Assembly (NCBI RefSeq): GCF_027352905.1
Contig: NZ_DAIEIF010000051.1
Span: 1-64,000 of the forward strand
DNA length: 64,000 bases
Direction of reading: 5' to 3'
Source: Acidocella sp.
GTDB taxonomy: Bacteria; Pseudomonadota; Alphaproteobacteria; Acetobacterales; Acetobacteraceae
A program made the position numbers and the translations under genes. Below, one piece after another: positions 47,345 through 64,000 of this stretch (the stretch's first letter is position 1; the number at the start of each line of letters is the position of its first letter). The notes under the pieces were generated by a model. It had not been told where the DNA came from, did not search any database, and worked only from the letters and a program-made list of their open reading frames with translations.

Positions 47345-47388
47345 GCTGCGTCTCCAATAGCCGCGTTGATGCCGGTCCTGAACGGACC

Positions 47389-49415: not shown

Positions 49416-49492
49416 GCACCCGTAGCTCAGCTGGATAGAGCGCCACCCTCCGAAGGTGGAGGCCACACGTTCGAATCGTGTCGGGTGCGCCA
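49416..49492 (+). tRNA. tRNA-Arg (anticodon CCG)
   Basis: 77-nt cloverleaf. Acceptor GCACCCG (49416-49422) pairs with CGGGTGC (49482-49488), discriminator G, and CCA is encoded (49490-49492). The D-arm region is GCTCAGCTGGATAGAGC, and the anticodon stem CCACC/GGTGG encloses CTCCGAA, giving anticodon CCG for codon CGG. The T-arm ACACG-TTCGAAT-CGTGT is regular. It stands 35 bases after the kinase gene. Confidence 0.97.
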
Positions 49493-49694: not shown

Positions 49695-50504
49695 CTAAAG
49701 CGGACAATCCTTACGGAATTTCGGCGCCCGTTTTTCACGGTGAGAGCGAACGCCTTCTTTCACGTCCTCGCTTAGGAAACCCAGCATCTCGAATGCAGTC
49801 GAAGCATCAAAAATGGGGCCAGCCTGACGCATCCAATTATTGAGCGAATATTTCGTCCAACGGATGGCGCTTTGCGAGCCATTGGCAAGCTCCACGGCAA
49901 CATCCAGGGCGGTCTGCTGCAGCACGTCGTCCTCGACGCACATCGATACCAGGCCAATACGCTCAGCCTCCTCGCCCGTAACCTGGCGGCAAGTGAGGAG
50001 ATAATATTTGGCTTTGGCCATCGAGGTTAGTAACGGCCAGATGATGGCCGCCACGTCGCCTGCGGCCACGCCAAGCCGGGGGTGGCCGTCCACGATCCTT
50101 GCCTTCTTCCCCGCGATAGAGATATCGGCGAGAATACCCACCACGAGCCCGGCGCCCGCCGCCGGCCCGTTGATCGCCGAAATGATCGGTTTATTGCAAT
50201 TGATGATGTTGTAGACGAGATCCTTGGCTTCCTTCCATGTTTTCATGATCTCGGTGGAGTTGCCGATCATGTTCTCGATCAGGCTGAAATCCCCCCCCGC
50301 GGAAAACGCCTTACCCGCGCCGGTGACAATGACGGCGTTGATGTCCGGGTCACGGTCGATGTCCAACCAAAGATCGGTCATCTGGGTGTGGGTCTCGGCA
50401 TCCACCGAATTGAAGGTTTCTGGACGATCGAAGGTGATCCGCAATACCCGTTCAGCCGGATAATCGAACTTCAGCTTGTGATATTTTTTATAACGGTCTG
50501 ACAT
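49695..50504 (-). CDS. Enoyl-CoA hydratase/isomerase family protein
   Basis: 269-aa crotonase-fold enzyme. ITFDRPETFNSVDAETHTQM, the first oxyanion-hole strand AFSAGGDFSLIE, and the second oxyanion glycine in INGPAAGAGLVVGILADISIAG are in place. The usual catalytic Glu pair of hydratases is not clearly seen (GHPRLGVAAGDVAAI aligns with the region), so isomerase, hydrolase or lyase activity is possible. Last gene of the acyl-CoA cluster, 20 nt after the dehydrogenase large subunit. Confidence 0.88.
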   Translation of the reverse strand: MSDRYKKYHKLKFDYPAERVLRITFDRPETFNSVDAETHTQMTDLWLDIDRDPDINAVIVTGAGKAFSAGGDFSLIENMIGNSTEIMKTWKEAKDLVYNIINCNKPIISAINGPAAGAGLVVGILADISIAGKKARIVDGHPRLGVAAGDVAAIIWPLLTSMAKAKYYLLTCRQVTGEEAERIGLVSMCVEDDVLQQTALDVAVELANGSQSAIRWTKYSLNNWMRQAGPIFDASTAFEMLGFLSEDVKEGVRSHREKRAPKFRKDCPL

Positions 50505-50524
50505 TTAGTTTTCCCTTTCCTGAA

Positions 50525-51676
50525 TTAATCCGGCAGTTCCAGCACTGCCTTGGCGAGAATATTGCGTTGGATCTCGTTGGCGCCGCCATAGATCGTTGTC
50601 GGTCGCGCCTTATAGAAGCTGGAGAGAACATCCATGCCCACATTGCCGACCTGCAGCGGGCCCAGCGTACCGCCATCGGGACCGGCGGCCTCGACCATCA
50701 GCTCGGTGATGCGCTGGAACGTCTCTGTTACCCAGATTTTGAGCATCGAAACATCGGAGCCCAGCGTCTCGCCGCGCTTCAACTGGTCGGCGAAACGGGT
50801 ATAAAGCGCCGCATGATCCTCCACGTCCAGCGCCGCTTGGGCGAAGCGGTCCCGGAACACCGGATCCTCAAAGGCGCCACGCCCGCGCGCGAAGCCTTCC
50901 AATTGAATAAGAGCATTCTGCGCGAGGTTGGGTGAGCCGATGAAAATGCGCTCGAAACTGAGCAGCGCCTTCGCCATCGTCCAGCCCTTGTTCATCTCGC
51001 CGACCAGATTCTCACGCGGCGTGCGGGCATTATCTAAAAATACCTCGCAAAACTCCTCTTCTCCCGCGAGGGTCTTGATCGTGCGCACCGTGATGCCGGG
51101 CTGATCCATCCGCGCCAGCAGAAAGCTGATGCCCTGCTGCTTCTTCGGCGCGTTGGGGTCCGTGCGCACCAGCATGAAAATATGGGTCGAATCATGCGCC
51201 ATCGTCGTCCAGATTTTTTGGCCGTTGATGACAAACTCATCACCTTCCAGCGCCGCGCGCGTCCGTAAATTAGCGAGATCGGAACCCGCTCCAGGCTCGG
51301 AATAGCCCTGGCACCAGATGGTCTCGCAAGACAGGATCCGAGGAAGCCAATAGTCCTTCTGCGCCTGGGTGCCGTATTTGATGATCAGCGGCCCGACCAT
51401 CTGCACTCCCATGTCGCGGCCTCGGACAATTCCCCAGCGCTGCTGCTCCTCATAGAAGATCAGAAGCTTCGCGGCATTCAGCCCCATGCCTCCGTATTCC
51501 GCCGGCCAGGCCGGGGCAACCCAGCCCTTGGCGTGCAGTTTTTTATGCCAATGCTCGATTTCGGCAAATTTTGGGCGGTGCGAGAGATTCCGTAACTCCG
51601 CCGGATATTCCGTTTCGAAAAATCGCCGAACTTCCTTGCGAAACTCGGCGTCACTCATCTGGTTCCAATCGGTCAT
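50525..51676 (-). CDS. Acyl-CoA dehydrogenase, large subunit of a heteromeric pair (PimC/FadE28-like)
   Basis: 383-aa flavoenzyme. GYSEPGAGSDLANLRTRA binds FAD and substrate, and IYGGANEIQRNILAKAVL is the C-terminal signature. The YGGANE form lacks the MCAD-type catalytic Glu, but E242 (SFERIFIG) stands at the alternative isovaleryl-CoA dehydrogenase-type position. Together with the next gene, which lacks a full active site, this matches the alpha2-beta2 dehydrogenases known from pimelate and steroid side-chain degradation. Its start shares one base with the stop of the small subunit (TAATG). Confidence 0.9.
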   Translation of the reverse strand: MTDWNQMSDAEFRKEVRRFFETEYPAELRNLSHRPKFAEIEHWHKKLHAKGWVAPAWPAEYGGMGLNAAKLLIFYEEQQRWGIVRGRDMGVQMVGPLIIKYGTQAQKDYWLPRILSCETIWCQGYSEPGAGSDLANLRTRAALEGDEFVINGQKIWTTMAHDSTHIFMLVRTDPNAPKKQQGISFLLARMDQPGITVRTIKTLAGEEEFCEVFLDNARTPRENLVGEMNKGWTMAKALLSFERIFIGSPNLAQNALIQLEGFARGRGAFEDPVFRDRFAQAALDVEDHAALYTRFADQLKRGETLGSDVSMLKIWVTETFQRITELMVEAAGPDGGTLGPLQVGNVGMDVLSSFYKARPTTIYGGANEIQRNILAKAVLELPD

Positions 51677-52806
51677 TATGCCGCCTCCTCCCGCTCACGC
51701 GCTTCCAGCCAAAGGCGGCGATGATAAACATCGTCCCCCAGCCATGCGGTCAATACAAGCGCGCGGTTCAGATAAAGCCCGATATCAAATTCATCGGTGT
51801 AGCCGACAGCGCCATGAAGCTGGATCGCCTCACGGGTGATCTTGCGCGCGGCGACACAGGCCCGCGCCTTGGCCCGGCTGGCCTGCCTGGCCCGCTGACG
51901 CGGATCATTGGTTTGATCCATACGCGCCAACGCCTCCCGTATACCCGCCGCCGCCACTTCCTGCATGATGCGTTGATCGACAGCGCGGTGTTGGAGCACC
52001 TGGAACGCGCCAATGGGTTTGTCGAATTGTTCGCGAGTCTTGATGTAATCGAGAGTGATTTCAAAAGCGCGCTCGCTGAGGCCCACCAGCTCGGCGGCGG
52101 CGAGGGCGGTGGCATCGCTCACCGCCTCGCTCAGAGCGGTTTCCACGGCGGCGCCCTCGGCGAGACGCTCAGCGGGCGTACCATTAAAAGCGAGCTCCGC
52201 CATGACGCTGCCGTCTGCTTGTGGCCTTTCCTCTATGGAAAGATTTGCAGCCCCTTTTTGCACCAGCGCCAGAACCGGACCGGCGCCGCCTTGCGCCACC
52301 ACGAGATAGCCCGACGCCCCACGGCTACCAACGACCCAAGCCTTGCGGCCATCGAGCTTACCATCCGTGTAACGGCAGGCCCGGGTCTGCGCCACGCCAC
52401 GCGGTCCGCGCTCTTGCCAGGCCGGCGCCAGCACGGAATTGCCTTCCAGCGCCGCACTCAGCGCGGCATGAGCTGGGCAAAGCCGGTACAGGAGACCAAT
52501 CGTAAGCCCGGCCATGGCCACGATGGGTTCCGGCGCGAGCACGCGCCCCGCCTCCTCCGCGACGACCCCCGCCGCAACCAGACCCATGCCAAGTCCGCCT
52601 TGTTTTTCCGGTATCGCCGCGCCAAACGCGCCAGCCTCCGCCAGTTCGCGCATAAGACCGGCATCCCAGCCCTGCGGCGCGCCCCGGAGTTTGCGGGCAC
52701 GGCCAACCCCGCCCGCCCGGTCGAAAAGAGTGCGAACGCTTTCGCGGAACAGCCGCAGCTCGTCCTGATTTTGGGATGTCATATCAGTGCTGGTCATTTG
52801 GCCCAT
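51676..52806 (-). CDS. Acyl-CoA dehydrogenase, small subunit of a heteromeric pair (PimD-like)
   Basis: 376-aa dehydrogenase homologue. LMRELAEAGAFGAAIPEKQGGLGMGLVAAGVVAEEAGR and TLDYIKTREQFDKPIGAFQVLQHRAVD are family blocks; AIQLHGAVGYTDEFDIGLYLNRAL closes the fold. The EIQR-type FAD end is missing and no catalytic Glu is visible, as in small subunits of heteromeric dehydrogenases. The ATG at 52804-52806 is preceded by GAAGAAG; ATGs 3 and 8 codons downstream are alternatives. A palindromic operator candidate lies 71 nt upstream. Confidence 0.88.
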   Translation of the reverse strand: MGQMTSTDMTSQNQDELRLFRESVRTLFDRAGGVGRARKLRGAPQGWDAGLMRELAEAGAFGAAIPEKQGGLGMGLVAAGVVAEEAGRVLAPEPIVAMAGLTIGLLYRLCPAHAALSAALEGNSVLAPAWQERGPRGVAQTRACRYTDGKLDGRKAWVVGSRGASGYLVVAQGGAGPVLALVQKGAANLSIEERPQADGSVMAELAFNGTPAERLAEGAAVETALSEAVSDATALAAAELVGLSERAFEITLDYIKTREQFDKPIGAFQVLQHRAVDQRIMQEVAAAGIREALARMDQTNDPRQRARQASRAKARACVAARKITREAIQLHGAVGYTDEFDIGLYLNRALVLTAWLGDDVYHRRLWLEAREREEAA

Positions 52807-52876
52807 ACTTCTTCGTTGTGAATGGCTTCAAAATGCGTTGGCGGAAGGAATCAGCCGCCTTCGGGTTATCCCATAA

Positions 52877-52892
52877 TCTAACAATCATTAGG
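52877..52892. promoter_or_regulatory. Candidate operator, copy 1 (TCTAAC-N4-ATTAGG)
   Basis: Imperfect palindrome TCTAAC-AATC-ATTAGG: 4 of 6 pairs match, with the inner CTAA/TTAG exact. It lies in the 131-nt gap before the dehydrogenase pair and has the same half-site and the same 4-base spacer as the perfect copy at 56506-56521. Confidence 0.45.
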
Positions 52893-52937
52893 CTATCGCC
52901 CCCTCCGGCCAGCGTCAATCGTGGATGGCATTCCCGC

Positions 52938-54062
52938 CTATGGCAAACCAAGTTCCCGATTGTGCTGCCCCAGCGGACTTGCCTGCCCCACCCGGTCAGC
53001 GGGTGCGCGAAAATCAGGCGCGAGTGGCAAAGGCAAGGCCGGCGCCTCGCGATCCGCTATGCGCAACTTACGCGCAAAGACGCCACGCGCGGTAAAATGC
53101 GGGTCCCGCGCGGCCTCGGCTGGGGTTTTCAAGATGGTGCAGCAACAATCAGCGGCCTCTAGCAATGGCGCCCAATGGGTGGAAGGCCGGGCGGCGAGCC
53201 GGCGAGCCACCTCCGCCGCGCAGGCGGCGGGATTACGCTTGTCGTCGCGCAACTCCGCTGGCTGGCCGATGACATCGCAAAACGCCTGCCAAAATTTTTC
53301 CTCCACCGCGCCGACAGCAATAATACGGCCATCCGCCGCCGGGTAGAGGCGATAACGCGCCAACCCGCCCGTCAGCCGGCTGGCAGCATTGGGGATGTCT
53401 TGCCCAGCCACAACCGCCGCCGCATGCGCCCAATAGGCGAACATGAACGCGCCCTCTGCCATCGCGATATCGAGATGCGTGCCCTCGCCGCCCTGGTCGC
53501 GCGCCCGCAGCGCCAGGAGAATATTGACCACGGCGGGATAGGTGCCGCCGCCAATATCGGCCACCAGCGCGAAGGGCATGGTGGGGTTTTCATCCGGACC
53601 GCGACTGAGCGATAGAATTCCCGCATCACCGACATAATTCATGTCGTGGCCCGCAGCGTTCGCCTTGGGGCCGGTTTGGCCGTAACCGGTAATCGAACAG
53701 TAAATGAGGCGGGGATTAATGTTGCGTACCGCCTCATAACCGAGACCGAGACGGTCCATCACACCCGGACGGAATTGCTCGACCAGCACATCCGCCCGCT
53801 CCAGCAGCGGCCGCAACGCCTCCACCGCGCCCGGCGCCTTGAGGTCGAGCGTCACCGATTTCTTGCCTTGATTGAGAATGGCGAAGCCTATGCTTTCACC
53901 TTCGATCTTCGGTTCCGTTGCCCGGGCATCCTCGCCCGTTCCAGGCCGCTCGAATTTGATTACTTCCGCCCCGGCCTCGGCCAGCATCAATGTTGCCATC
54001 GGCCCCGGCAGCAAGGTGCTGAAATCGAGAACGAGAATTCCCGTGAGCGGTTGCCGGCTCAT
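52938..54062 (-). CDS. Alpha-methylacyl-CoA racemase-like family III CoA-transferase homologue
   Basis: 374-aa protein of the CaiB/BaiF superfamily. VLDFSTLLPGPMATLMLAEAGAEVIKFERP and DLKAPGAVEALRPLLERADVLVEQFRPGVMDRLGLGYE are superfamily blocks. Two features favour the racemase branch: AGHDMNYVG with H139, and D169 in VADIGGG, 30 residues apart like the H126/D156 acid-base pair of mycobacterial racemase. It would interconvert (R)- and (S)-2-methylacyl-CoA so that (S)-specific dehydrogenases can act. The start overlaps the hydratase stop by 4 nt. A CoA-transferase function is the alternative. Confidence 0.82.
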   Translation of the reverse strand: MSRQPLTGILVLDFSTLLPGPMATLMLAEAGAEVIKFERPGTGEDARATEPKIEGESIGFAILNQGKKSVTLDLKAPGAVEALRPLLERADVLVEQFRPGVMDRLGLGYEAVRNINPRLIYCSITGYGQTGPKANAAGHDMNYVGDAGILSLSRGPDENPTMPFALVADIGGGTYPAVVNILLALRARDQGGEGTHLDIAMAEGAFMFAYWAHAAAVVAGQDIPNAASRLTGGLARYRLYPAADGRIIAVGAVEEKFWQAFCDVIGQPAELRDDKRNPAACAAEVARRLAARPSTHWAPLLEAADCCCTILKTPAEAARDPHFTARGVFARKLRIADREAPALPLPLAPDFRAPADRVGQASPLGQHNRELGLP

Positions 54063-54916
54063 TTGAATCTCGCGGCTCCGTTATTCAGCACCATAACACC
54101 TCGCGCGGGTATCGAGGCACGGAAACGGGCTTCCCCGCCCTCTTCCCAGATATCGAAACGCACCGTCTCGCCGGGATATACCGGAGAGGAGAAACGGACA
54201 TCGAGCCCGATTAGCCGGCTCGCGTCGTAATCGAGCAACGTCTTTAAAATCGCCCGGGCGGCGAGACCATAAGTGGCGAGACCATGCAGGATCGGCCGCT
54301 CGAAACCGGCGGCGCGCGCCACGTCTGGGTCGGCGTGGAGCGGGTTGTAATCACCGCTGAGCCGGTAAATCAGCGCCTGGCGCGGCAGGGTGGTCAACTC
54401 GCACACATGGTCCGGCGCCCGCTCGGGCAATACGGCAGGGGCAGGACCGGCCCGGTTCTCGCCGCCAAATCCACCATCGCCGCGGCAGAAGGCCGACATG
54501 GTGACCCGGGCCAGCGTCTCGCCGCTATCCGCGTTGATGATATCGCGGCTTTGATAGATAACCGCACCCTTGCCCTCGCCCTTATCCGAGATAAAGTCGA
54601 TCTTCGGGCGGCCAATAATAGTGCCTTTCACTGGCAGCGGCTTATAGATATCAAGCCATTGCTCGCCGTGGAGCACCTTCTTCCAATCCACGCCCGTTTT
54701 GGGGTTGCGTAACCAGAAGCCGGGATAGCCCAACACAACCGGCATGGAGGGAACCGTTTTCAACCCGTCCTCATAGACGAATTGCAACTCCTTCTTGTCG
54801 CACGGATCCTCGCCAAAACCCAGCCCCAGCGCATAAAGCATGGTATCGCGCTCGGTCACGGTTTGCCTGATTTCATCGAACTCCCAGCTTGAAAGCGCAG
54901 CAATATCCAGTGGCAT
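54059..54916 (-). CDS. MaoC/MFE-2-type enoyl-CoA hydratase
   Basis: 285-aa protein with two hot-dog halves, like the hydratase-2 domain of peroxisomal multifunctional enzyme type 2. The N-terminal half has TERDTMLYALGLGFGED and LKTVPSMPVVLG; the C-terminal half carries the catalytic motif YRLSGDYNPLHADP (D189, N191, H194) and GFERPILHGLATYG. Hydrates trans-2-enoyl-CoA, usually to the (R)-3-hydroxyacyl-CoA. ATG 54914-54916 follows AAGGGGG; the longer frame to 55111 runs into the thiolase-like gene. Follows the thiolase-like gene by 20 nt. Confidence 0.9.
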   Translation of the reverse strand: MPLDIAALSSWEFDEIRQTVTERDTMLYALGLGFGEDPCDKKELQFVYEDGLKTVPSMPVVLGYPGFWLRNPKTGVDWKKVLHGEQWLDIYKPLPVKGTIIGRPKIDFISDKGEGKGAVIYQSRDIINADSGETLARVTMSAFCRGDGGFGGENRAGPAPAVLPERAPDHVCELTTLPRQALIYRLSGDYNPLHADPDVARAAGFERPILHGLATYGLAARAILKTLLDYDASRLIGLDVRFSSPVYPGETVRFDIWEEGGEARFRASIPARGVMVLNNGAARFK

Positions 54917-54936
54917 CGGTTCCCCCTTTGATGATG

Positions 54937-56088
54937 TTAGAGCGTGGCGGCAGACCCCAGAATAGCGGTGACCTGGCTGGTGAGAACACCGCCATTGCCA
55001 TGCGCCAGCGCCAGGTTCACATCCTTGATCTGCAATCCAGGCGCATCGCCGCGAATTTGGCGGGCGGCCTCTATGATGGTGAAAATGCCGTACATGCCGG
55101 GATGCACGCATGAAAGCCCGCCGCCATTCGTGTTCACCGGCAGCACCCCGCCCGGGGCGATCCGCCCGCCCTCGACAAAAGTCCCGCCCTCACCTTTCTT
55201 GCAAAAGCCAAGATCCTCCAAAAACAAAATTGTATTGATGGTGAAAGCGTCGTAAAGCTCCACCACATCTATATCCGCAGGCTTCACCCCCGCCGCGGCG
55301 AAGGCGCGCTGGCCGGATTCGCGTGCCGCCGTCACGGTGAAATCCGGCATCTGGGAGATCTGACGGTGGGCGCTCTCGGCAGCGCTGCCCAGCACATAAA
55401 CGGGGGGCTTGGGAAAATCCTTTGCCCGTTCCGCCCGCACCAGCACCACCGCGCCACCGCCATCGGTGACGAGACAGCAATCCCGCACGGAAAGCGGGTC
55501 GCAAACCATGCGCGCTGACAGCACTTGCTCTTGCGTCAGCGGCCCGCGCTCGAACGCCTCCGGATTCTGCTGCGCCCAGCCGCGCGCGGCCACAGCCACA
55601 TCAGCCAGCTGCTCGCGAGTCGTGCCGAATTCATGCATATGACGCGCCGCCGCCAACGCATAAGCGGAAATAGGGTAACGCGGATTGTAGGGGGCCTCAT
55701 AAGGTGGCGGACGGGAGACCGTGACCAGCTTGCCCGAGGCGGTGCGCTGGTTGGAACCATAAACGATCAGCGCCACATCGCAAAGCCCGGCCTCCAGCGC
55801 CATCGTTGCCGAGGTCAGGTAATTCACGAAAGACGAACCGCCGGTCATCGTGCCTTCCACGAAGCGGGGACGGATGCCGAGATATTCCGCCGCCATAAGC
55901 GCGGGCATGCTGTCTTCCATCATGGTGCAGAACAGCCCGTCCACGGCGTTCAGCTTGAGTCCGGCATCGCCAAGCGCCGCCAGCGCCGCCTGGGCCATGA
56001 TCTCATAGGCGGTCAACCCATGCGCTTCACCAAAACCGGCATGGCCTGTGCCCACGATCGCGGCTTTGCCACGCAATTGGTTCGTCAT
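54937..56088 (-). CDS. SCP2/Ltp2-type thiolase-like protein lacking the nucleophilic Cys
   Basis: 383-aa thiolase-fold protein. AAIVGTGHAGFGEAHGLTAYEI and ITQM-type blocks, ELYDAFTINT (Y279 where SCP2 thiolases have His), and NTNGGGLSCVHPGMYG near the C-terminus are family features. Where thiolases have the acyl-accepting Cys (NCATGSS-like), this protein reads TMTGGSS, with M81 in its place. It therefore should not do normal thiolysis. Ltp2-type aldolases of steroid side-chain degradation also lack this Cys and work with a DUF35 partner, which is exactly the neighbour here (4-nt gap). ATG 56086-56088 chosen; the extension to 56148 covers DUF35. Confidence 0.85.
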   Translation of the reverse strand: MTNQLRGKAAIVGTGHAGFGEAHGLTAYEIMAQAALAALGDAGLKLNAVDGLFCTMMEDSMPALMAAEYLGIRPRFVEGTMTGGSSFVNYLTSATMALEAGLCDVALIVYGSNQRTASGKLVTVSRPPPYEAPYNPRYPISAYALAAARHMHEFGTTREQLADVAVAARGWAQQNPEAFERGPLTQEQVLSARMVCDPLSVRDCCLVTDGGGAVVLVRAERAKDFPKPPVYVLGSAAESAHRQISQMPDFTVTAARESGQRAFAAAGVKPADIDVVELYDAFTINTILFLEDLGFCKKGEGGTFVEGGRIAPGGVLPVNTNGGGLSCVHPGMYGIFTIIEAARQIRGDAPGLQIKDVNLALAHGNGGVLTSQVTAILGSAATL

Positions 56089-56092
56089 GGTT

Positions 56093-56470
56093 TTATCCCT
56101 CCGCCGGCTTGCAGAGAACCGCCGCGCCCCCCGCGGCCTCGCCGACATAGGCGGTCACTACCATGCCGATCTTTACCTCTTGCGGAGCAAGCCCTTCCAC
56201 CCGGCTCATCATCCGCACGCCTTCTTCCAACTCCACCATGCAGATATTGTAGTCACCGCCATGTTCCGGTTTCTGCCGCACCACGGTGGTGGTGTGTATT
56301 TCGCCCCGTCCGGATACCGGATGCCAGGCGAATTCCATGGCGTGGCAATGGGGACAGACAAGGCGGGGAAAGAAATGAAATTTACCGCAGGAGCGGCATT
56401 TCGGCAAAATGATTCTGCCCTCCGCCAACCCGTTCCGGAACATTTTATCCGGATGCCCGGTAGTTTCCAT
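56093..56470 (-). CDS. DUF35 OB-fold/zinc-ribbon acyl-CoA-associated protein
   Basis: 125-aa protein with an N-terminal rubredoxin-like zinc ribbon (CRSCGKFHFFPRLVCPHCHA: two CxxC pairs) and a C-terminal OB fold (GRGEIHTTTVVRQ, YNICMVELEEGVRMMSRV). DUF35 proteins form complexes with thiolase-like enzymes and channel acyl-CoA substrates. The ATG is preceded by AAGGG. It begins a unit with the thiolase-like gene; a perfect TCTAAC-N4-GTTAGA palindrome lies 36 nt upstream, suggesting an own promoter. Confidence 0.9.
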   Translation of the reverse strand: METTGHPDKMFRNGLAEGRIILPKCRSCGKFHFFPRLVCPHCHAMEFAWHPVSGRGEIHTTTVVRQKPEHGGDYNICMVELEEGVRMMSRVEGLAPQEVKIGMVVTAYVGEAAGGAAVLCKPAEG

Positions 56471-56547: not shown

Positions 56548-57714
56548 TCAATATGATTTGGGCAAGCCTAACGCATTTTCGGCGATAAAGGATAAGATGA
56601 GCTGCGGTGTGATCGGGGCGATCCGGAACAATATTGCCTCTCGCACCAGACGCTCTACATGATATTCCTTGGCGTAGCCGAAACCGCCGAAGGTCAGCTG
56701 GGCAGTCTGCGTCGCTTTCACAGCGGCCTCGCCGGCAAGATACTTGGCGGCATTCGCCTCATTGCCGCAAGGCTTGCCCGCATCATACAAGGCTCCGGCA
56801 TGCATGGCCATCAGATTAGCGGATTCAAGCTCAGCCCAGGACACCGCAAGCGGATGCTGCACGCCTTGATTCTGGCCAATCGGCCGGCCGAAGACCACAC
56901 GCTCATTGGCATAGGCTGCGGCGCGTTTGAGCGCGTTGCGGCCTATGCCGACGGCCTCCGCGGCGATCAACACCCGTTCCGGGTTGAGCCCGTGGAGGAT
57001 CTGACGGAAGCCCTGCCCTTCTTCCCCGATCAGGTCTTCAGCGGGAATCGGCAGACCGTCGATGAACAACTCATTTGAATCCACGCATTTACGGCCCATT
57101 TTCTCGATCTCGCGGACATCGACATAATTACGGTCGAGATCGGTATAAAATAGGCTTAACCCCTCAGTCGGCTTCTTTACTTCATCCAGCGGAGTGGTAC
57201 GCGCCAAAAGCAGGATTTTATTCGCCGTCTGGGCGGTGGAAATCCACACCTTCTGGCCGTGGACAATATAGCGGTCGCCCTGACGTACCGCCCGGGTCTT
57301 GAGCTTGGTCGTGTCGAGGCCTGTCGTTGGCTCTGTGACTCCAAAACAAGCCCGCTCCTTGCCAGCGATCAAAGGCGGTAAATAGCGCCGCTTCTGCTCG
57401 TCAGTGGCGAATTTTACCACTGGATTGAGACCAAAAATATTCATGTGAATCGCGGAGGCGGCGCTGTTGCCCCCACCCGATTCGGCGATGGCCTGCATCA
57501 TGATGGCTGCCTCGACGATGCCTTGGCCCGAGCCGCCATATTCTTCCGGAATGGCGATGCCAAGCCAGCCGTCCTTAGCGAGCTTCTGATGCAGCTCTAC
57601 CGGGAAGCCCCCCTTGCGGTCGCGTTCAAGCCAGAAGGCATCGTCGAATTCCGCGCAAATTCGTAAAATCGCTTCCCGGATATGCGCCCGTTCCGGCGTC
57701 ATTTCATAACTCAT
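56548..57714 (-). CDS. Acyl-CoA dehydrogenase (helix-G Glu type)
   Basis: 388-aa dehydrogenase. IPEEYGGSGQG, FGVTEPTTGLDTTKLKTRA, HGQKVWISTAQTANKILLLART and RVVFGRPIGQNQGVQ are the FAD/substrate blocks. At the MCAD catalytic position the sequence reads RIAPIT, with no Glu, but E246 (GLNPERVLIA) lies where isovaleryl-CoA dehydrogenase has its base. It is a paralogue of the gene at 62801-63973 (same FGRPIGxNQG and LILSFIAE endings). 12 nt after the MaoC stop region; ATG with GGGGAAATGAA. Confidence 0.9.
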   Translation of the reverse strand: MSYEMTPERAHIREAILRICAEFDDAFWLERDRKGGFPVELHQKLAKDGWLGIAIPEEYGGSGQGIVEAAIMMQAIAESGGGNSAASAIHMNIFGLNPVVKFATDEQKRRYLPPLIAGKERACFGVTEPTTGLDTTKLKTRAVRQGDRYIVHGQKVWISTAQTANKILLLARTTPLDEVKKPTEGLSLFYTDLDRNYVDVREIEKMGRKCVDSNELFIDGLPIPAEDLIGEEGQGFRQILHGLNPERVLIAAEAVGIGRNALKRAAAYANERVVFGRPIGQNQGVQHPLAVSWAELESANLMAMHAGALYDAGKPCGNEANAAKYLAGEAAVKATQTAQLTFGGFGYAKEYHVERLVREAILFRIAPITPQLILSFIAENALGLPKSY

Positions 57715-57726
57715 TTCATTTCCCCT

Positions 57727-58209
57727 TCATTCCGGCCGCCGCCGCACCAACAATTTCCAAATTCCCTCGACCACGATTTCGCCGCGCTGGTTCGTTACCT
57801 CGCGTTTAAGCGACAAGACGCCACGATCCGGCTTTGACGTCTCCCGCTTGTCCTCGACAACCACCCGCAACCCGATCGTGTCGCCAATGAAGGCCGGCTT
57901 TGGAAAACGGCAATGCATGTCCAGCAATCCCAGCAGGGACGGCTCGAGAAAATTGTTAAGCAGCATCCGAGTGAAGAGCCCGGACATCACGGCAACCACC
58001 AGCAAACCATGGGCAATGCGCTGGCCGAAAGGGGATTTTCCCGCATATTCGGCATCCACATGCAGCCGGTTGAAATCACCGGAGAGGCAAGCAAAGGCTG
58101 TAATATCAGCCTCGGTGATCGTGCGGGTCGCGCCTTCAAAACAATCCCCGACGGCGAGATCCTCCCAAAAGATCTGCTCGTCCTTCAATTTGTTGAAATC
58201 GACTGTCAC
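57727..58209 (-). CDS. MaoC-family (R)-enoyl-CoA hydratase
   Basis: 160-aa single hot-dog protein. The (R)-hydratase motif is visible as CLSGDFNRLHVDAEYA with D45 and H50, and RIAHGLLVVAVMSGLF follows. The N-terminal YWED-like segment (QIFWEDLAVGDCFEGATRTITEADI) is usual. Length suits a homodimeric PhaJ- or mesaconyl-type hydratase. The start is a GTG (58207-58209) overlapping the ligase stop by 4 nt. Confidence 0.9.
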   Translation of the reverse strand: MTVDFNKLKDEQIFWEDLAVGDCFEGATRTITEADITAFACLSGDFNRLHVDAEYAGKSPFGQRIAHGLLVVAVMSGLFTRMLLNNFLEPSLLGLLDMHCRFPKPAFIGDTIGLRVVVEDKRETSKPDRGVLSLKREVTNQRGEIVVEGIWKLLVRRRPE

Positions 58210-59729
58210 CCTCTATCCTCCTGAAGATGAAGCTGGGCGAGTACCTGCTCCTTCAATTCGCCTTTGAGAACGCGGCCGGTGAGATTGCGCGGCACCGACT
58301 CCATGAACACAACGCGGCGCGGCCGCTTGTAACGCTCAAGCCGGGCCTCGGCATAAGTGATCACGTCTTCCTCGCTCAACGAGGCGCCTGGAGCCGGGAC
58401 GATCACCGCGCAGATCAACTCGGTCCAATGGGGATCGGGCAGACCGATGCAATGCGCCTCGGCAATACCGGAATGGTTAATGAGGAGTTCTTCGATATCT
58501 CCTGCATAAATATTGATGCCGCCGCTTTTGATGATATCGCGCTTGCGCCCGGCGAACCAGAGCAGCCCGTTTTCATCCATCCGGCCCAAATCACCCACTG
58601 TCACATAGTCGCCACGGCGGGTTTCGTTGGTGAGTTCGTTTTCCTTATAATAACAATCGAAGCGAGATTCGCTGCGTGTGCAAATTTCCCCAACCTCGCC
58701 CAGCGGAACCTCATTAAGGTCATCATCCAGTAATTTCAGTTCGACTCCAAAAAAGGGACGGCCCACGCAATTGCCGGTCATGTGCGCGCGCAAATCGGCG
58801 GCGCGAAGATTGGCGTACGGGCCGGCCTCGGTGGAGGCGGCGTAAATATTCAAGGCATCGCCGAAACGCGCTAGAATTTTGGCTTTTAAATCAGGGAAAA
58901 TCTCTCCCGCGCCAGATTGTAGCGTGCGCACCGATGAAAGATCGGCGTCATCGAAACCCGGCACTTCGGTGAGACGCTGCAGCATCGCCGGCAGCAGCAT
59001 GGTCGCGGTGATCCGCTCGGTTGTGATCAGGCGAAGCGCTTCCTCGGCCTCGAAACGCTCCATCAGATACACGGTGCCGCCCAGATAAAGTGGCAGCAAA
59101 GTATAGGCGCAACCCGCCGAAAGGCAGATGGGCAAGGCGCAAAGCATCCGATCATCTGGACGAAAACCCTGCTCGATCGCCCGCTCTTCCATGCCATAAC
59201 GGCTGCGTAGCGCGCCCTTCGGCACACCTGTCGTTCCGGATGTATGCAGCATGATGGTGGTGCCCCCTTCCCCCGGTGGCGGATCAGGCGGGGTGGCAGC
59301 GATCATATCCGCCAGCAAAGGCAGGCCGGTATTGCCAGCACGCTCGCCCAGCACCAACATTCCGGGTACGGCATCCCGAAACAACCCGGCATGCTCCAAT
59401 ACCGTTTCATCGAGCAGAAGCAGAGCGCTATCCGCCCGGCGCACCACCTCAGCCATAATCTCCGGCTTGATTCGGTAATTCACCGGCGCCGGAATCGCGT
59501 CCAGCCCGGTGATCGCGATATAGGCGGCAAGAAAATCCGGGTGATTCTCGGCGATGATCGCTACCTTATCGCCTGGGGCGATGCGCTGGCCGTGCAGAAC
59601 CGTCATCATCCGCTCGACCCGGTCCTGAAACGCGGCGTAGGATTGAGGCTGGCCCTTGAAAACCACCGCATCCTTTTTGGGAAACCGCTTGGCATTCAGG
59701 CGTAGCGCCTTCAGGAAGGTCATGGGCAT
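58206..59729 (-). CDS. AMP-dependent acyl-CoA synthetase
   Basis: 507-aa ANL-superfamily ligase that activates a carboxylic acid with ATP and CoA. P-loop MLHTSGTTGVPKGAL (residues 160-174), IYAASTEAGP as motif A5 (usually YGxTE), TVGDLGRMDENGLLWFAGRKRDIIKSGGINIYAGDIEE (A7-A8) and a C-terminal catalytic lysine in TGRVLKGEL. Substrate unknown; it resembles long-chain, cyclohexane- and crotonobetaine-type ligases. It is the only ligase of the cluster and suggests that a free acid is taken up. Confidence 0.92.
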   Translation of the reverse strand: MPMTFLKALRLNAKRFPKKDAVVFKGQPQSYAAFQDRVERMMTVLHGQRIAPGDKVAIIAENHPDFLAAYIAITGLDAIPAPVNYRIKPEIMAEVVRRADSALLLLDETVLEHAGLFRDAVPGMLVLGERAGNTGLPLLADMIAATPPDPPPGEGGTTIMLHTSGTTGVPKGALRSRYGMEERAIEQGFRPDDRMLCALPICLSAGCAYTLLPLYLGGTVYLMERFEAEEALRLITTERITATMLLPAMLQRLTEVPGFDDADLSSVRTLQSGAGEIFPDLKAKILARFGDALNIYAASTEAGPYANLRAADLRAHMTGNCVGRPFFGVELKLLDDDLNEVPLGEVGEICTRSESRFDCYYKENELTNETRRGDYVTVGDLGRMDENGLLWFAGRKRDIIKSGGINIYAGDIEELLINHSGIAEAHCIGLPDPHWTELICAVIVPAPGASLSEEDVITYAEARLERYKRPRRVVFMESVPRNLTGRVLKGELKEQVLAQLHLQEDRG

Positions 59730-59743
59730 CGACGGCTCCTCCG

Positions 59744-60910
59744 TCAGCTGAACGCGGATAGGCCCAGAATTTCGCGTCCGATGATCAGGGTTTGAATTTC
59801 CGAGGTGCCCTCCGGGATCAGGCCGCCCCGTGTATCGCGGAAAATCCGTTCAATGGGATAATCCGTGCTGTAGCCCATGCCGCCATGCGCCTGCAACGCC
59901 ATGGACGCGACCTCATGCGCCGCCTCGCTGGCATAGAGCTTGGCGATGGAACACTCCCGCCGCGCGCTCAAGCCTTGATCCATCGCCTGGGCGGCACGAT
60001 CCGTCAAAGCCCGGGCCGCCTCGGTGCGCACCGTCATATCCACAATCAGCTTCTGCACCAATTGGAAACCGCCGATCGTCTTGCCAAACTGCTTGCGGGT
60101 TTTAACGTAATCAGTCGCTAAATCCAGCGCCGCCTGGGCCGCGCCCACCGCACCCGCCGCCACGTTGAGCCGGCCGTAATTCAATCCAGTAAGGATCGCT
60201 TTCAATCCTTGCCCTTCCGGCCCCAGCAGGTTTTCCCGAGGGATGCGCGCATCGCGGAACCCGAGCTGCGAGGTGGCCGTGGCCTTGACGAACATGGTGC
60301 CGACCCGGCTCGCCTCGTACTCCGTTTCATCGCGATCGACCAGAAACAGGCTGAGACCGCCATCGCAACGCGGCGAAAAAGTCCGAGCCACCAGAACTCC
60401 CAGGCGGCCGTTCACACCATTGGTGATCCATAATTTATTGCCGTTGACAAGCCAGTGATCGCCCCGCTCCTCCGCCCGGGTGGTGACACTCGCCACATCC
60501 GACCCATGCTCCGGCTCGGTGATCCCGACCCAGACGGGCAATTCGCCACGTAATAACGGCTCCAGCCATTTACGCTTCTGCCGCTCATCTCCCAGATGAT
60601 GCAGGAGTGCCACGACGATGTTCAGGGTGTTCAGCAAAACCCGCAAAGACAACCAGCGATACCCGGCCTCTTCCATCATCATCGCCCACGCGCGATAGGT
60701 AAGACCGAAACCACCCGCCTCCTCCGGCAGGAGGCCTCCCACATAGCCGAATTCGCGCAACTGCCCGATGAGTTCCCAGGGAAACGAGCCTCGCGCCTCA
60801 CTTTCGGCGATACGCGATTCGGACAGGTTCTTACCCATGAACGCGCGAATGCTCTCCCGCAGCATCCGCGCCTCGTCGCTCAGCCCATCTGCGGCTGGGG
60901 CCTCAGCCAT
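59744..60910 (-). CDS. Acyl-CoA dehydrogenase (MCAD-type Glu)
   Basis: 388-aa dehydrogenase. VGITEPEHGSDVASVTTRAEE, NGNKLWITNG, TRKQFGKTIGGFQLVQKLI, LQAHGGMGYSTDYPIERIFRD and the FAD end IPEGTSEIQ are present. E367 in IPEGTSEIQ is the MCAD-type catalytic base, while the helix-G position is Gly-Arg (LNYGRLN), so it uses the alternative site to its two relatives in this cluster. ATG 60908-60910 lies 8 nt inside the SDR gene end. Confidence 0.92.
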   Translation of the reverse strand: MAEAPAADGLSDEARMLRESIRAFMGKNLSESRIAESEARGSFPWELIGQLREFGYVGGLLPEEAGGFGLTYRAWAMMMEEAGYRWLSLRVLLNTLNIVVALLHHLGDERQKRKWLEPLLRGELPVWVGITEPEHGSDVASVTTRAEERGDHWLVNGNKLWITNGVNGRLGVLVARTFSPRCDGGLSLFLVDRDETEYEASRVGTMFVKATATSQLGFRDARIPRENLLGPEGQGLKAILTGLNYGRLNVAAGAVGAAQAALDLATDYVKTRKQFGKTIGGFQLVQKLIVDMTVRTEAARALTDRAAQAMDQGLSARRECSIAKLYASEAAHEVASMALQAHGGMGYSTDYPIERIFRDTRGGLIPEGTSEIQTLIIGREILGLSAFS

Positions 60911-61652
60911 ACCGGCCGCCGGTGATGTGCAGCGTCTCGCCTGAAATATATCCCGCCGCTTCGGAGACCAGAAAAAGCACCCCATTGGCGATATCACGCT
61001 CAGTGCCCAGGCGTGGAACGGTGTTCATCGCCAGTGCCCGCTGCTTGATCTTCTCGTAATGGGGTAAAGCGGCGATCATCTCAGTGGCGATGAAGCCTGG
61101 CGCGATGGCATTGACCGTGACGTTGAAGCGGCCTTGTTCCATCCCGAGCGCGCGGGTGAAACCGATGATGCCCGCCTTGGCGGCGGAATAATTTGTTTGG
61201 CCTGGATTGCCGAAATGCGCCCGGGAGGAGATATTCACGATCCGGCCGTATTGCTGCTTCATCATATGGGGCACGACCGCCGCTGAGCAGAGATACGCGC
61301 CCTTGAGTATGACCTCGACAACCGCGTCCCAATCCTCCTCCGGCATCTTGGTGATGTAATTGTCGCGCGGAAAGCCCGCATTATTGACGAGAATATGGAC
61401 CGTGCCGAACGCCTCGACCGCTTTATCAACCATTGCCGCCACGCTGGCCTTGTTTCGGACATCGCAGGGCACTCCGATCACCTCATAACCCTCGACGGCC
61501 AGGGCGCCCCGCGTGGCCTCGGTGGTATCGGGATTGATGTCGGTAATGACGATTTTAGCGCCTTCCTCGGCCAGGGCCCTGGCGGTGACCGCGCCTATGC
61601 CCCGCCCAGACCCGGTGACGATCGCCACTTTATCCTTCAAGCCGAGATCCAT
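60903..61652 (-). CDS. Short-chain dehydrogenase/reductase (FabG-like)
   Basis: 249-aa classical SDR. Cofactor motif TGSGRGIG (residues 13-20), CDV at 63-65, NNAG (90-93), S142/S143, Y155 and K159 (YSAAKAG). D38 after strand 2 (ITDIN) favours NAD(H), so it probably oxidises a 3-hydroxyacyl-CoA made by the MaoC hydratase. ATG 61650-61652 follows AAGGGGGG. It lies between the dehydrogenase and the CoA-transferase genes. Confidence 0.92.
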   Translation of the reverse strand: MDLGLKDKVAIVTGSGRGIGAVTARALAEEGAKIVITDINPDTTEATRGALAVEGYEVIGVPCDVRNKASVAAMVDKAVEAFGTVHILVNNAGFPRDNYITKMPEEDWDAVVEVILKGAYLCSAAVVPHMMKQQYGRIVNISSRAHFGNPGQTNYSAAKAGIIGFTRALGMEQGRFNVTVNAIAPGFIATEMIAALPHYEKIKQRALAMNTVPRLGTERDIANGVLFLVSEAAGYISGETLHITGGRYG

Positions 61653-61668
61653 GCCATCACCCCCCTTC

Positions 61669-62799
61669 TCAATCTTTCCCGCAGAATTCCGTAAGAACGG
61701 CCTGGGTATGCTCACCCAGCGACGGCACCGGTCCGTAATGGCGTTCGGCCCCGCGAACGATTGGCGCCGGAGCTGGAAACGATATTTCCCCCGCAGCGCT
61801 TCTCACCGTGATCCGTCGCAAATGCGGGTGGCGGGAAAGCGCCTCCATATCGTTCACCTCCGCAAAGGCGATGTCCGCCTTGGTCAAATGCTTGAGCAAC
61901 TCCGCCGCTGACAGCGCGCCGAACGCCTGCGCCACGGCAGCGTCGGTCTCGGCCCGGTTGGCGACCCGCAGCACTGTACTCGCAAAACGTGGATCGGAAG
62001 CCATCCAGGCAAGTCCGGGCACGCCCGCGCAAAACGCCTTCCATTCCCTCTCATTCTGAATGGAAATGAGAACTTGCCGCCCATCCGCAGTGGAAAACAC
62101 CCCATAAGGCGCAATGGAGGTATGCGAAAGCCCCGAGCGTTTTGGAGGATTGCCCTGCTCGGCGTTGTAGAGCGGCACGGCCATCCAATCCGCCATCACA
62201 TCGAACATCGAGATGCGGATATCTGCGCCCTCACCCGTGCGTCCCCGTCCGATCAGCGCCTCTAAAATGGCGGTCTGCGCGGTAACGCCGGTTGAGATGT
62301 CAACGACGGATATGCCAACGCGCGCCGGCCCTTCCGGGCCGCCGGTAATGGAAGCCAACCCTGATTCGGCCTGGATGAGCAGGTCATAAGCTTTGCGGTT
62401 GGCGAGCGGTCCCTCATCTCCATAACCTGTGATGGAGCAACAGATGAGCCGGGGATAGGCAGCGCGGAGGGATTCGATGGAAAGCCCAAGCCGCGCCATC
62501 GCCCCTGGTTTCAGGTTTTGAATCAGCACATCGGCCTGGGCGATGATGGCCCGCAATTGTTCGCGTGCCTCGGGCTGCGTCAGATCGAGCACCACCGATT
62601 CCTTGCCGCGGTTCAGCCAGATGAAATAAGAACTCCCCGCAGGCGTCGCCGCGTCATAATACCGGGCGAAATCGCCTTCCGGGCGCTCGATCTTGATCAC
62701 CCGCGCGCCGGCATCAGCCAGACGCGCGCTGCAAAATGGCGCGGCGACGGCCTGTTCGATACTGACGACCAGCAATCCCTCCAGCGGCAACGCACTCAT
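61669..62799 (-). CDS. Family III CoA-transferase (CaiB/BaiF)
   Basis: 376-aa CoA-transferase. VSIEQAVAAPFCSARLADAGARVIKIERPEGDFARYYD is the usual start. LNRGKESVVLDLTQPEAREQLRAIIAQADVLIQNLKPGA is the superfamily core, and D167 in VVDISTG matches the catalytic Asp of formyl-CoA transferase. The racemase His is absent (RKAYDLLIQ), which separates it from the gene at 52938. Probably moves CoA between acids, sparing ATP. ATG 62797-62799; the upstream dehydrogenase stop is one base away. Confidence 0.9.
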   Translation of the reverse strand: MSALPLEGLLVVSIEQAVAAPFCSARLADAGARVIKIERPEGDFARYYDAATPAGSSYFIWLNRGKESVVLDLTQPEAREQLRAIIAQADVLIQNLKPGAMARLGLSIESLRAAYPRLICCSITGYGDEGPLANRKAYDLLIQAESGLASITGGPEGPARVGISVVDISTGVTAQTAILEALIGRGRTGEGADIRISMFDVMADWMAVPLYNAEQGNPPKRSGLSHTSIAPYGVFSTADGRQVLISIQNEREWKAFCAGVPGLAWMASDPRFASTVLRVANRAETDAAVAQAFGALSAAELLKHLTKADIAFAEVNDMEALSRHPHLRRITVRSAAGEISFPAPAPIVRGAERHYGPVPSLGEHTQAVLTEFCGKD

Positions 62800-62800
62800 A

Positions 62801-63973
62801 TCAATACGACCTTGGCATGCCGAGCACATGCTCGGCGATGAAACTCAGGATGAGATTGGTGGAGATCGGCGCCACTTGGTAAAGCCGGGTTTCGCGGAAT
62901 TTACGCTCAACATCATATTCCGCCGCAAAGCCGAACCCGCCATGGGTTTGCACGCAGGCCTCCGCCGCCTCCCAGGCGGCCTCCGCGGCGAGCATCTTCG
63001 CCATATTGGCCTCGGCACCGCAATTCTCTCCGGCTTCGAACAAGCCGGCGGCTCGATGCACCATCAATTCCGCCGCCCGCATCCGCGCATAGGCTTTGGC
63101 AATGGGGAACTGGATACCCTGATTCTTACCGATCGGCCGTCCAAACACCACCCGCTCATTGGCATAAGCGGTTGCTTTATCGATGAACCATTTGGCGTCG
63201 CCAATGGATTCAGAGCCGATCAGGATACGTTCCGCATTCATGCCTGAGAGGATATAACGGAAACCCCTACCCTCTTCGCCAATCAGATTCTTGGCGGGAA
63301 CCATCACATTGTCGAAAAACACTTCTGTGGTGGAATGGTTCATCATGGTGGGAATAGGACGAATGGTAAGCCCTGCCTTCTTGGCCTCGCGCATATCCAG
63401 CAGAAAAATGGACAATCCGTCCGTGCGCTTTTTCACCGCGTCCAGCGGCGTGGTGCGCGCCAGCAGCAGCATCAGGTCGGAATACTCCGCCCGCGATGTC
63501 CAGATTTTTTGGCCGTTGACGATGTAATGATCACCTTCCCGGCGCGCCACGGTGCGCAGAGAGGCGGTGTCGGTGCCGCTGGTCGGCTCCGTCACCCCGA
63601 AGGCCTGCAAACGTAACTCGCCGCTGGCGATTTTGGGCAGATATTTAGCCTTCTGTTCCGGGCTGCCATGGCGCAGCAGCGCGCCCATAATATACATCTG
63701 CGCGTGGCAGGCAGCGCCATTGCAGCCCGCGCGCTGCACCTCTTCGAGGATCGCCGCGGCCGCTGAAAGGCCGAGTCCCGAGCCGCCATATTCTTCCGGA
63801 ATAAGCGCCGAAAGCCAGCCTCCCTCGGTTAAGGCTTGGACGAATTTAGCCGGATAAGCATCCTTGCGGTCCAGTTCTTGCCAATAAGAGCCTGGAAACG
63901 CGGCGCAAAGCTTGCGCACTTCGGCGCGGATCTCAGCATGCGATTCCTGCTCTGCGGCTTTAGAGGTGGTCAA
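62801..63973 (-). CDS. Acyl-CoA dehydrogenase (helix-G Glu type, paralogue)
   Basis: 390-aa dehydrogenase. LIPEEYGGSGLGLS, AFGVTEPTSGTDTASLRT, NGQKIWTSRAEYSDLMLLLART and RVVFGRPIGKNQGIQ are FAD/substrate blocks. The MCAD position reads QVAPIS without Glu; E248 (GMNAERILIG) is the likely base. It ends LILSFIAEHVLGMPRSY, close to the paralogue at 56548-57714. The start is a TTG at 63971-63973 with AGGAGTAGGATA before it. It is complete; the 27 bases to the window edge hold no further gene, so the cluster may continue outside. Confidence 0.92.
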   Translation of the reverse strand: MTTSKAAEQESHAEIRAEVRKLCAAFPGSYWQELDRKDAYPAKFVQALTEGGWLSALIPEEYGGSGLGLSAAAAILEEVQRAGCNGAACHAQMYIMGALLRHGSPEQKAKYLPKIASGELRLQAFGVTEPTSGTDTASLRTVARREGDHYIVNGQKIWTSRAEYSDLMLLLARTTPLDAVKKRTDGLSIFLLDMREAKKAGLTIRPIPTMMNHSTTEVFFDNVMVPAKNLIGEEGRGFRYILSGMNAERILIGSESIGDAKWFIDKATAYANERVVFGRPIGKNQGIQFPIAKAYARMRAAELMVHRAAGLFEAGENCGAEANMAKMLAAEAAWEAAEACVQTHGGFGFAAEYDVERKFRETRLYQVAPISTNLILSFIAEHVLGMPRSY

Positions 63974-64000
63974 TATCCTACTCCTGATTCCGTTTTCCGT

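Follow-up and report, generated by a model that had tools for sequence, protein, structure and literature searches.

In the catabolism of methyl-branched acids, alpha-methyl branches need a racemase and beta-methyl branches need a carboxylase together with a lyase. For beta-methyl branches, the Atu route has been described (PMC4847356). Catalytic roles have also been assigned to residues of the steroid aldolases Ltp2 (motif YDHF together with Tyr344) and Sal (motif YDCY with Cys304) (PMC12329534). Here we compare with these systems a locus in a stretch of 64,000 nucleotides of Acidocella sp. DNA (the window; positions 1 to 64,000 of contig NZ_DAIEIF010000051.1, assembly GCF_027352905.1). Seven minus-strand genes at 49695-56470 encode, in the order of transcription, a stand-alone DUF35 protein, a thiolase-like protein (THIO), an MFE-2-type enoyl-CoA hydratase (MFE2), a 2-methylacyl-CoA racemase-like protein (MCR), the putative small and large subunits of a heteromeric acyl-CoA dehydrogenase (ACDS and ACDL) and a crotonase-family protein (ECH1). 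With somewhat better than even odds (about 0.55), this cassette removes alpha-methyl branches, as one step of a catabolic system for isoprenoid-type, methyl-branched acids that was acquired horizontally.

An earlier note on this DNA had described six genes in one minus-strand run at 50525-56470, and all six open reading frames (ORFs) are present at these coordinates with the expected domains. These limits cut the feature, since ECH1 is part of the conserved cassette and the run itself reaches ~72808. The complete order DUF35-THIO-MFE2-MCR-ACDS-ACDL-ECH1 was found in 12 of 80 loci (the best 80 of at least 589) at 58-92% protein identity, with ECH1 at 89-92%, and one truncated contig among the 80 holds the first four genes. 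The recurrence of the full order shows that the seven-gene cassette is more than a chance arrangement. Eleven of the 12 complete loci carry Rhodobacterales-type names or belong to Ahrensia, and the remaining one is from Enterovirga.

THIO belongs to the subfamily PRK06158 (651 bits, cut-off 421). The position of the thiolase nucleophile, which is a Cys in SCP2-type thiolases, is occupied by Met101 in THIO (alignment to 7yvy) and by Cys in 2 of the 80 homologues. In our alignments, Tyr299 lies on the catalytic Tyr of both Ltp2 (294) and Sal (302), Ala301 on Ltp2 His296 and Sal Cys304, and His349 on Ltp2 Tyr344 and Sal Gln352. The resulting site, YDAF with His349, therefore corresponds neither to that of Ltp2 nor to that of Sal. 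All 80 homologues at >=50% identity, again the best 80 of at least 589 relatives, keep Tyr299, Ala301 and His349; their loci were retrieved with six scan patterns, and His349 falls within one of these (HPGMYGIF). Alignments with more distant proteins, for which no patterns were used, likewise show no change at Tyr299, Phe302 and His349, and His349 is kept in all 34 rows, six of them at 41-47% identity and found without the motif scan. The neighbouring DUF35 protein is of ChsH2 type, and each of its four zinc-ribbon cysteines is conserved in 13 of 13 homologues.

The AlphaFold model of THIO (pLDDT 84.6, pTM 0.87) is closest to 4u4e (Z 50.5), a thiolase that is uncharacterised. Of the matches with an assigned function, the nearest are Sal (9myr, Z 48.9) and Ltp2 (6ok1, Z 47.9), the latter tied with the T. 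brucei SLP (Z 47.9). Other thiolases of this branch score Z 40-46 and classical thiolases ~34. We rejected the fold as proof of an aldolase because genuine thiolases of this branch come close to these scores. As the two kinds of enzyme are not told apart by the fold, the missing Cys and the kept Tyr carry most of the weight. THIO lacks the nucleophilic Cys and keeps the Tyr of the steroid retro-aldolases, and it is therefore predicted to be a retro-aldolase dependent on its DUF35 partner, in which His349 may act as the acid.

In a phmmer comparison of MCR with the PDB, AMACR/MCR entries come first (194 bits) and CoA-transferases reach at most 170 bits. In a tree of 10 rows with a single reference racemase (MtMCR), MCR groups with MtMCR at 100/99, apart from the CoA-transferases, and its interpretation as a CoA-transferase was rejected on this grouping. 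Both His139 and Asp169 were confirmed, and His139 (GHD motif) is present in 12 of 12 homologues. Each of the seven non-racemase rows of the tree has Tyr or Phe in place of the His, whereas the Asp is common to all 10 rows, CoA-transferases included; only the His, therefore, separates racemase from CoA-transferase. A contrast is provided by CaiB2, the other family III protein encoded in the run, which falls with the transferases in the tree and has the reverse PDB ranking (a CaiB/BaiF protein at 216 bits, AMACR at 63). MCR is thus a 2-methylacyl-CoA racemase-like protein, and racemase activity is predicted for it.

The hydratase combines the Pfam domains MFE-2_hydrat-2_N and MaoC as in MFE-2/hydratase 2 enzymes, and its best PDB match is the peroxisomal MFE-2 1s9c (191 bits). 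It carries the sequence YRLSGDYNPLH, which we take to be the hydratase-2 motif, with Asp254 and His259 present in 13 of 13 homologues. The large dehydrogenase subunit ACDL best matches Tcur3483 (6wy9/6wy8, 187 bits) and ACDS best matches Tcur3481 (6wy8_A, 104 bits), so that each finds one subunit of the same solved heteromer, a pair that we assume to be ChsE1/ChsE2-like. Glu242 of ACDL (LSFER site), presumably the IVD/LCAD-type catalytic position, is present in 12 of 12 homologues. The layout is that of a heteromeric dehydrogenase, with a large subunit bearing this Glu adjacent to a small subunit without a middle-domain match. The earlier note had assigned a racemase-like protein with an H139/D169 pair, a heteromeric-type dehydrogenase pair and an MFE-2-type hydratase to a 2-methylacyl-CoA logic. 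These assignments held and the logic is supported; the clustering of the racemase with CoA-transferases that it had named as contrary evidence was not seen. Its thiolase-like protein has the thiolase fold but is better read as retro-aldolase-like, since the nucleophilic Cys is missing.

The evidence for a wider system comes from plasmids. ACDL homologues at 80-90% identity occur in 39 plasmid records, and the cassette racemase (MCR, >=69%) is found on 39 plasmids, six of 45 records with MCR identity <=60.0% having been dropped before this count. The HMG-CoA lyase of the neighbouring module (>=84%; 7 of 44 matches dropped at <60%) is on 37 of these 39 racemase plasmids, AtuA (>=81%; 99 of 136 matches dropped at <60%) on 36, and all three genes are on 35. 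MCC-type carboxylase genes are annotated beside AtuA or HMG-CoA lyase on the plasmids viewed there, and the R. indicus annotation of the AtuA neighbour reads 'acyclic terpene utilization AtuA family protein'. In Sagittula MA-2, ~2 kb of p5 separate the cassette operon from the start of the HMG-CoA lyase/MCC-type module that follows it, and this stretch holds an IS5 transposase and a gene for nitronate monooxygenase. In each of the six plasmid regions viewed, MCR and ACDS are separated by a transglutaminase-like gene and a 149-residue MaoC gene, and a pair of divergent CoA-transferases stands upstream; most also contain an acyl-CoA dehydrogenase, ETF subunits, crotonases and a Liv-type ABC transporter. 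According to the source data of the records, the plasmid carriers are mostly marine, many of them from algal cultures. AtuA at >=81% is present in 9 of 11 cassette genomes (the complete-cassette loci with L040 omitted) against 1 of 9 chosen contrast genomes, a contrast confounded by kinship; seven of the nine are not Rhodobacterales. AtuA also stands at 83%, without a match to the cassette racemase, on Sagittula MA-2 p6 (NZ_CP126151.1 153397-155175), the plasmid described for degradation of polycyclic aromatic hydrocarbons (PAH). A cassette plasmid of Phaeobacter sp. G2 (L124 15827-29387, record 60826-74386) carries genes for alkane 1-monooxygenase, rubredoxin, aldehyde dehydrogenase, 'choline dehydrogenase' and beta-oxidation, together possibly an entry route from hydrocarbons.

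The same modules are found again in the Acidocella genome, whose contigs are numbered here, C46 being the 142-kb contig of the window. All 22 ORFs picked between 49695 and 75022 match Roseobacter-type loci (a set that includes Enterovirga and Roseibium) at 56-92%, and the genes for the MaoC-like hydratase, LIG1, ACD4 and SDR stand in the same order on R. indicus pRIdsm_01. AtuA (PF07287, 476.8 bits) is encoded at C4:3154-4476, where contig C4 begins with an Atu module at 61-89% identity, and C19 contains a crotonase pair and an SDR at ~74-78%. The C4 carboxylase and two plasmid counterparts have Gly at the position of human MCC beta Phe191, whereas the other carboxyltransferases of this genome (C46, C19, C5, C1) and the other plasmid copies examined keep Phe. 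Gly or Phe at this position distinguishes the GCC pocket from the MCC pocket (PMC4673880, numbering matched to the human MCC beta chain). For a genome of 2.3 Mb, five carboxyltransferase matches and five DUF35 matches (C9, two on C34, C33 and C46) seem many.

From the genes, their families and active-site residues, their order and co-occurrence and their patchy distribution, we infer a set of reactions, a type of substrate and the joint use of the modules in one pathway. MCR would epimerise the 2-methylacyl-CoA, which ACDL/ACDS would oxidise to 2-methyl-2-enoyl-CoA, and the MFE-2-type hydratase would add water to give 3-hydroxy-2-methylacyl-CoA. THIO with DUF35 would then release propionyl-CoA and an aldehyde or ketone by retro-aldol cleavage, with Tyr299 as the base and His349 as the acid. 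Beta-methyl branches would be handled by the adjoining module (MCC-type carboxylase, HMG-CoA lyase, citryl-CoA-lyase-like protein and hydratase) and by the AtuA module of C4 with its partly geranyl-CoA-carboxylase-like enzyme. As the alpha- and beta-branch modules are linked on plasmids and occur together again in this genome, methyl-branched isoprenoid-type substrates seem the best explanation. Candidates may be phytol/pristane-like, farnesyl-like and algal terpenoid acids.

Relatives of Acidocella were compared using 36 congeners and 24 class members, many of these genomes being incomplete. Within the genus, the best identities are 49-50% for THIO, 52% for ECH1 and 51% for AtuA, and among all genomes compared 63%, 65% and 57%, in each case outside the genus; the same three proteins reach ~81-92% to Roseobacter-type loci. 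This patchy distribution, together with the high identity to Roseobacter-type loci, supports horizontal transfer, for which either direction is possible. At ~48-102 kb, the G+C content is below the values at both contig ends. Third-position G+C ranges over 0.70-0.89 in 12 sampled genes that precede the run and over 0.61-0.74 in 15 genes from the run onward. The drop begins before the run and is only suggestive. A tRNA-integrated island was considered and rejected, as no exact copy of the 3' end of the adjoining tRNA-Arg (last >=14 bases) was found on the contig. No transfer machinery was seen on C46.

The cassette closes a co-directional run of 21 minus-strand genes from ~72808 down to 49695, in which the largest intergenic gap, read from the ORF ends, is 131 bp (Table 1). 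Past the window, the run comprises, in the direction of transcription, ECH2, an acyl-CoA dehydrogenase, a PaaK-like ligase and a carboxyltransferase, followed by a biotin carboxylase, an HMG-CoA-lyase-like protein, a citryl-CoA-lyase-like protein and ACD5. The citryl-CoA-lyase-like stand-alone protein (C46 64046-64840; PRK06224.1-5, 359 bits) is kept at 83-84% beside the cassette or HMG-CoA lyase in three loci (L026, L112 and L116). The true starts of two genes probably lie downstream of their ORF starts, at residue 66 (~54916) in the hydratase and, judging from the gene overlap, at Met21 (~56088) in THIO. Adjoining the tRNA and the run are genes for an HWE histidine kinase with PAS, GAF and receiver domains (47329-49380, plus strand) and a Crp-family regulator (46382-47116, minus strand), both of which are possible regulators. 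Also adjoining the run, just past the window, is a valine/isobutyryl-CoA-type gene set (C46 75061-79760, plus strand) of aldehyde dehydrogenase, acyl-CoA dehydrogenase, an HIBCH-like protein (ECH_2, 416 bits) and a 3-hydroxyisobutyrate dehydrogenase-like (HIBADH-like) protein. Further along, C46 84795-90272 holds two acyl-CoA dehydrogenases, a crotonase and a nitronate monooxygenase-like gene at 54-69% to plasmid genes, whose counterparts lie downstream of the cassette on the R. indicus and S. alexandrii plasmids; a third dehydrogenase of this block (C46 87942-89093) has its match elsewhere (45%).

Table 1. Features of the locus, in contig coordinates.
Feature	Position	Strand	Support or remark
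tRNA-Arg(CCG), adjoins the end of the run	49416..49492	+	
ECH1, crotonase family, PRK07327 subfamily; last gene of the cassette	49695..50504	-	420 bits, cut-off 292
ACDL, large subunit, FAD-binding type, of a heteromeric-type acyl-CoA dehydrogenase	50525..51676	-	Pfam; best PDB match 6wy9/6wy8
ACDS, degenerate small subunit	51676..52806	-	No Acyl-CoA_dh_M match in Pfam; best PDB match 6wy8_A
Gap, 131 bp	52807..52937		Plasmid homologues have the transglutaminase-like and 149-residue MaoC genes here
MCR, 2-methylacyl-CoA racemase-like, His139/Asp169	52938..54062	-	CoA_transf_3 domain; tree; PDB ranking
MFE-2-type double-domain enoyl-CoA hydratase 2	54059..54916 (ORF to 55111)	-	MFE-2_hydrat-2_N + MaoC
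THIO, SCP2-thiolase-like, predicted retro-aldolase	54937..56088 (ORF to 56148)	-	Thiolase_C_1; YDAF + His349
DUF35/ChsH2-C protein, predicted THIO partner	56093..56470	-	Zinc ribbon Cys25, 28, 39, 42
ACD3, acyl-CoA dehydrogenase	56548..57714	-	89% to R. indicus plasmid gene
MaoC-like hydratase	57727..58209	-	75% to R. indicus plasmid gene
LIG1, acyl-CoA ligase	58206..59729	-	73% to R. indicus plasmid gene
ACD4, acyl-CoA dehydrogenase	59744..60997	-	76%
SDR, FabG-like oxidoreductase	60903..61715	-	80%
CaiB2, CoA-transferase-type family III protein	61669..62829	-	Tyr replaces the racemase His
ACD5, acyl-CoA dehydrogenase	62801..64000, on to ~64036 past the window	-	Followed by the MCC/HMG-CoA-lyase module

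Several observations weigh against an isoprenoid-type system with a retro-aldolase at its centre. The invariance of His349 in the 80 loci is partly selection, as the pattern HPGMYGIF includes this residue, and of eight wider homologues only four have Ala at position 301, the other four having Ser and thus the motif YDSF. The THIO model is matched at Z 47.2 by 6esq, a true thiolase for acetoacetyl-CoA that is DUF35-linked, at 45.9 by a thiolase from Pyrococcus and at 44.0 by benzoylsuccinyl-CoA thiolase. Retro-aldolases of this fold are known for steroids, and a plain 2-methyl-3-hydroxyacyl-CoA could be handled by a dehydrogenase and a thiolase. The path length from MCR to MtMCR (2.11) is only slightly below that to the nearest transferase-type row (2.23). 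As for the linked modules, C4 and C46 are separate contigs. The C46 carboxylase at 67845-69452 keeps its MCC likeness (592 bits against 411 for GCC), so that leucine-type chemistry would also fit its module. The C4 carboxylase likewise scores nearer to MCC (588 bits against 427 for GCC), and the GCC-type deletion of three residues before the Gly is absent from it in the alignment; AtuA and the pocket Gly are the Atu features present. Twenty of the 39 racemase plasmids are from one species, P. pseudonitzschiae, and of the 45 MCR plasmid records 14 are predicted to be conjugative and 4 mobilizable, while 27 are predicted to be non-mobilizable. No integrase match was found on C46, the two integrase matches of the genome being on C53 and C6, and neither the transglutaminase-like gene nor the 149-residue MaoC gene of the plasmid operon was found there, even as a remnant. 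Weak MaoC and PaaK matches on C46 were tried as such remnants and rejected, as they belong to other genes of the run.

The MCC likeness raises the question of catabolism of branched-chain amino acids and short branched acids, in which MCC and HMG-CoA lyase would serve leucine and the MmsA-HIBCH-HIBADH-like genes valine, and the cassette would act on isobutyryl/2-methylbutyryl-type acids with no isoprenoid substrate. The MCC-type carboxylase and the valine-type genes at 75061-79760 are in line with this. We nevertheless regard it as unlikely, given the five carboxyltransferase copies in so small a genome, the presence of an AtuA module whose carboxylase has the GCC-type Gly, and the aldehyde dehydrogenase and HIBADH-like genes, which have no match in the Roseobacter loci; a ChsE-like heteromer together with an MFE-2 hydratase is also, we assume, unusual for C4-C5 acyl-CoA. 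It seems quite unlikely that the substrate is an alicyclic, aromatic or dicarboxylic acid (pimeloyl, naphthenic or aryl-alkanoate), with ACDL/ACDS as a PimC/PimD-like pair and THIO/DUF35 cleaving the ring or aryl side chain. The nearest NCBIfam models of ACDL and ACDS are indeed pimC and pimD, but at 296 and 138 bits they are far under the equivalog cut-offs of 624 and 653, which weakens the dicarboxylate placement that the earlier note had named as a contrary outcome. The neighbouring module has a PaaK-type ligase, and the carriers include a Frigidibacter from oil-production water and the phenanthrene-degrading Sagittula MA-2. PAH degradation, which the latter strain suggested, was rejected because its published PAH cluster is on p6 and the cassette on p5. 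Against all acids of this kind, a member of the racemase clade argues for an alpha-methyl carbon.

We consider improbable a divergent igr-like set (ChsE1E2-ChsH1H2-Ltp2) that removes the C3 side chain of a sterol or bile acid, the ring being attacked elsewhere or left as product. The cassette contains the same kinds of enzymes as the igr set (PMC12502768), ACDL/ACDS find their best PDB match in the T. curvata pair, and of the enzymes with an assigned function Sal and Ltp2 are the closest to the THIO model. However, no match to KshA_C (PF19298) was found in this genome, stated to be 99.04% complete, other ring genes not having been searched, and only partial matches occur in 3 of 10 cassette genomes, two of them just above the cut-off. 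The YDAF/His site of THIO stands against YDHF/Tyr in Ltp2 and YDCY/Gln in Sal, DUF35 is not fused to a MaoC domain, and the plasmid regions viewed contain carboxylases and AtuA. Among the substrates proposed in the earlier note, isoprenoids thus gain from the co-occurrence of AtuA and HMG-CoA lyase and from the presence of both modules in the genome, sterols and bile acids lose ground, and nothing was found for a 'plant' terpenoid or 'hopanoid-like' acid, the plasmid carriers being mostly marine.

Every enzyme family of this locus is already known. What may be new is that an igr-like alpha-branch module is combined with Atu and HMG-CoA-lyase/MCC modules, and that a small genome and Roseobacter-type plasmids agree in this nearly gene by gene; no description of the cassette or of the combined plasmid system was found in searches limited to open-access literature. 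A bolder proposal, tentative and with the odds against it, is that the YDAF thiolase-fold protein and its stand-alone DUF35 partner form a third retro-aldolase class beside Ltp2 and Sal, for non-steroid methyl-branched substrates, which together with the linked carboxylase and AtuA modules would amount to plasmid-borne mineralisation of isoprenoids with alpha- and beta-methyl branches in algae-associated marine bacteria. If the reading as an isoprenoid pathway is right, the role of these genes in marine isoprenoid turnover could be tested, and the DUF35-partnered aldolases would have a third type of active site. Relatives of THIO are common, with at least 589 in one scan, and the motif was checked in the best 80.

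Compared with the known systems, the racemase belongs to the same clade as MCR/AMACR (PDB 1x74, 8rmw) and has the GHD motif and the Asp, but at only 194 bits. PimC/PimD pimeloyl-CoA dehydrogenase has the large/small layout of ACDL/ACDS and the nearest curated models, from whose equivalog range the two subunits remain far. THIO resembles Sal of the Sal-Shy(DUF35) complex (9myr, PMC12329534) and Ltp2 of Ltp2-ChsH2(DUF35) (6ok1) in its fold, its catalytic Tyr and its accompanying DUF35 gene. It is 35% identical to Sal and 33% to Ltp2, and differs in the second residue (Ala; Cys in Sal and His in Ltp2) and at the third position (His349; Gln352 in Sal and Tyr344 in Ltp2). The igr-type sets of Mycobacterium and of Comamonas testosteroni (ORF40-44, PMC12502768) share with the cassette a two-gene dehydrogenase, a MaoC-fold hydratase, DUF35 and a thiolase-fold aldolase-like protein in one operon. 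In contrast, the cassette has a stand-alone DUF35, a single-chain MFE-2-type hydratase, a racemase, a crotonase and the YDAF/His site, and is without KshA. With the Atu/Liu pathways of Pseudomonas and Thauera linaloolentis (PMC4847356), this genome and the plasmids have in common AtuA, biotin-dependent carboxylases, and HMG-CoA-lyase-like and acyl-CoA dehydrogenase genes. Here, however, the genes are not arranged as atuABCDEFGH, the carboxylases are MCC-like overall, and the module is joined to one for alpha-methyl branches.

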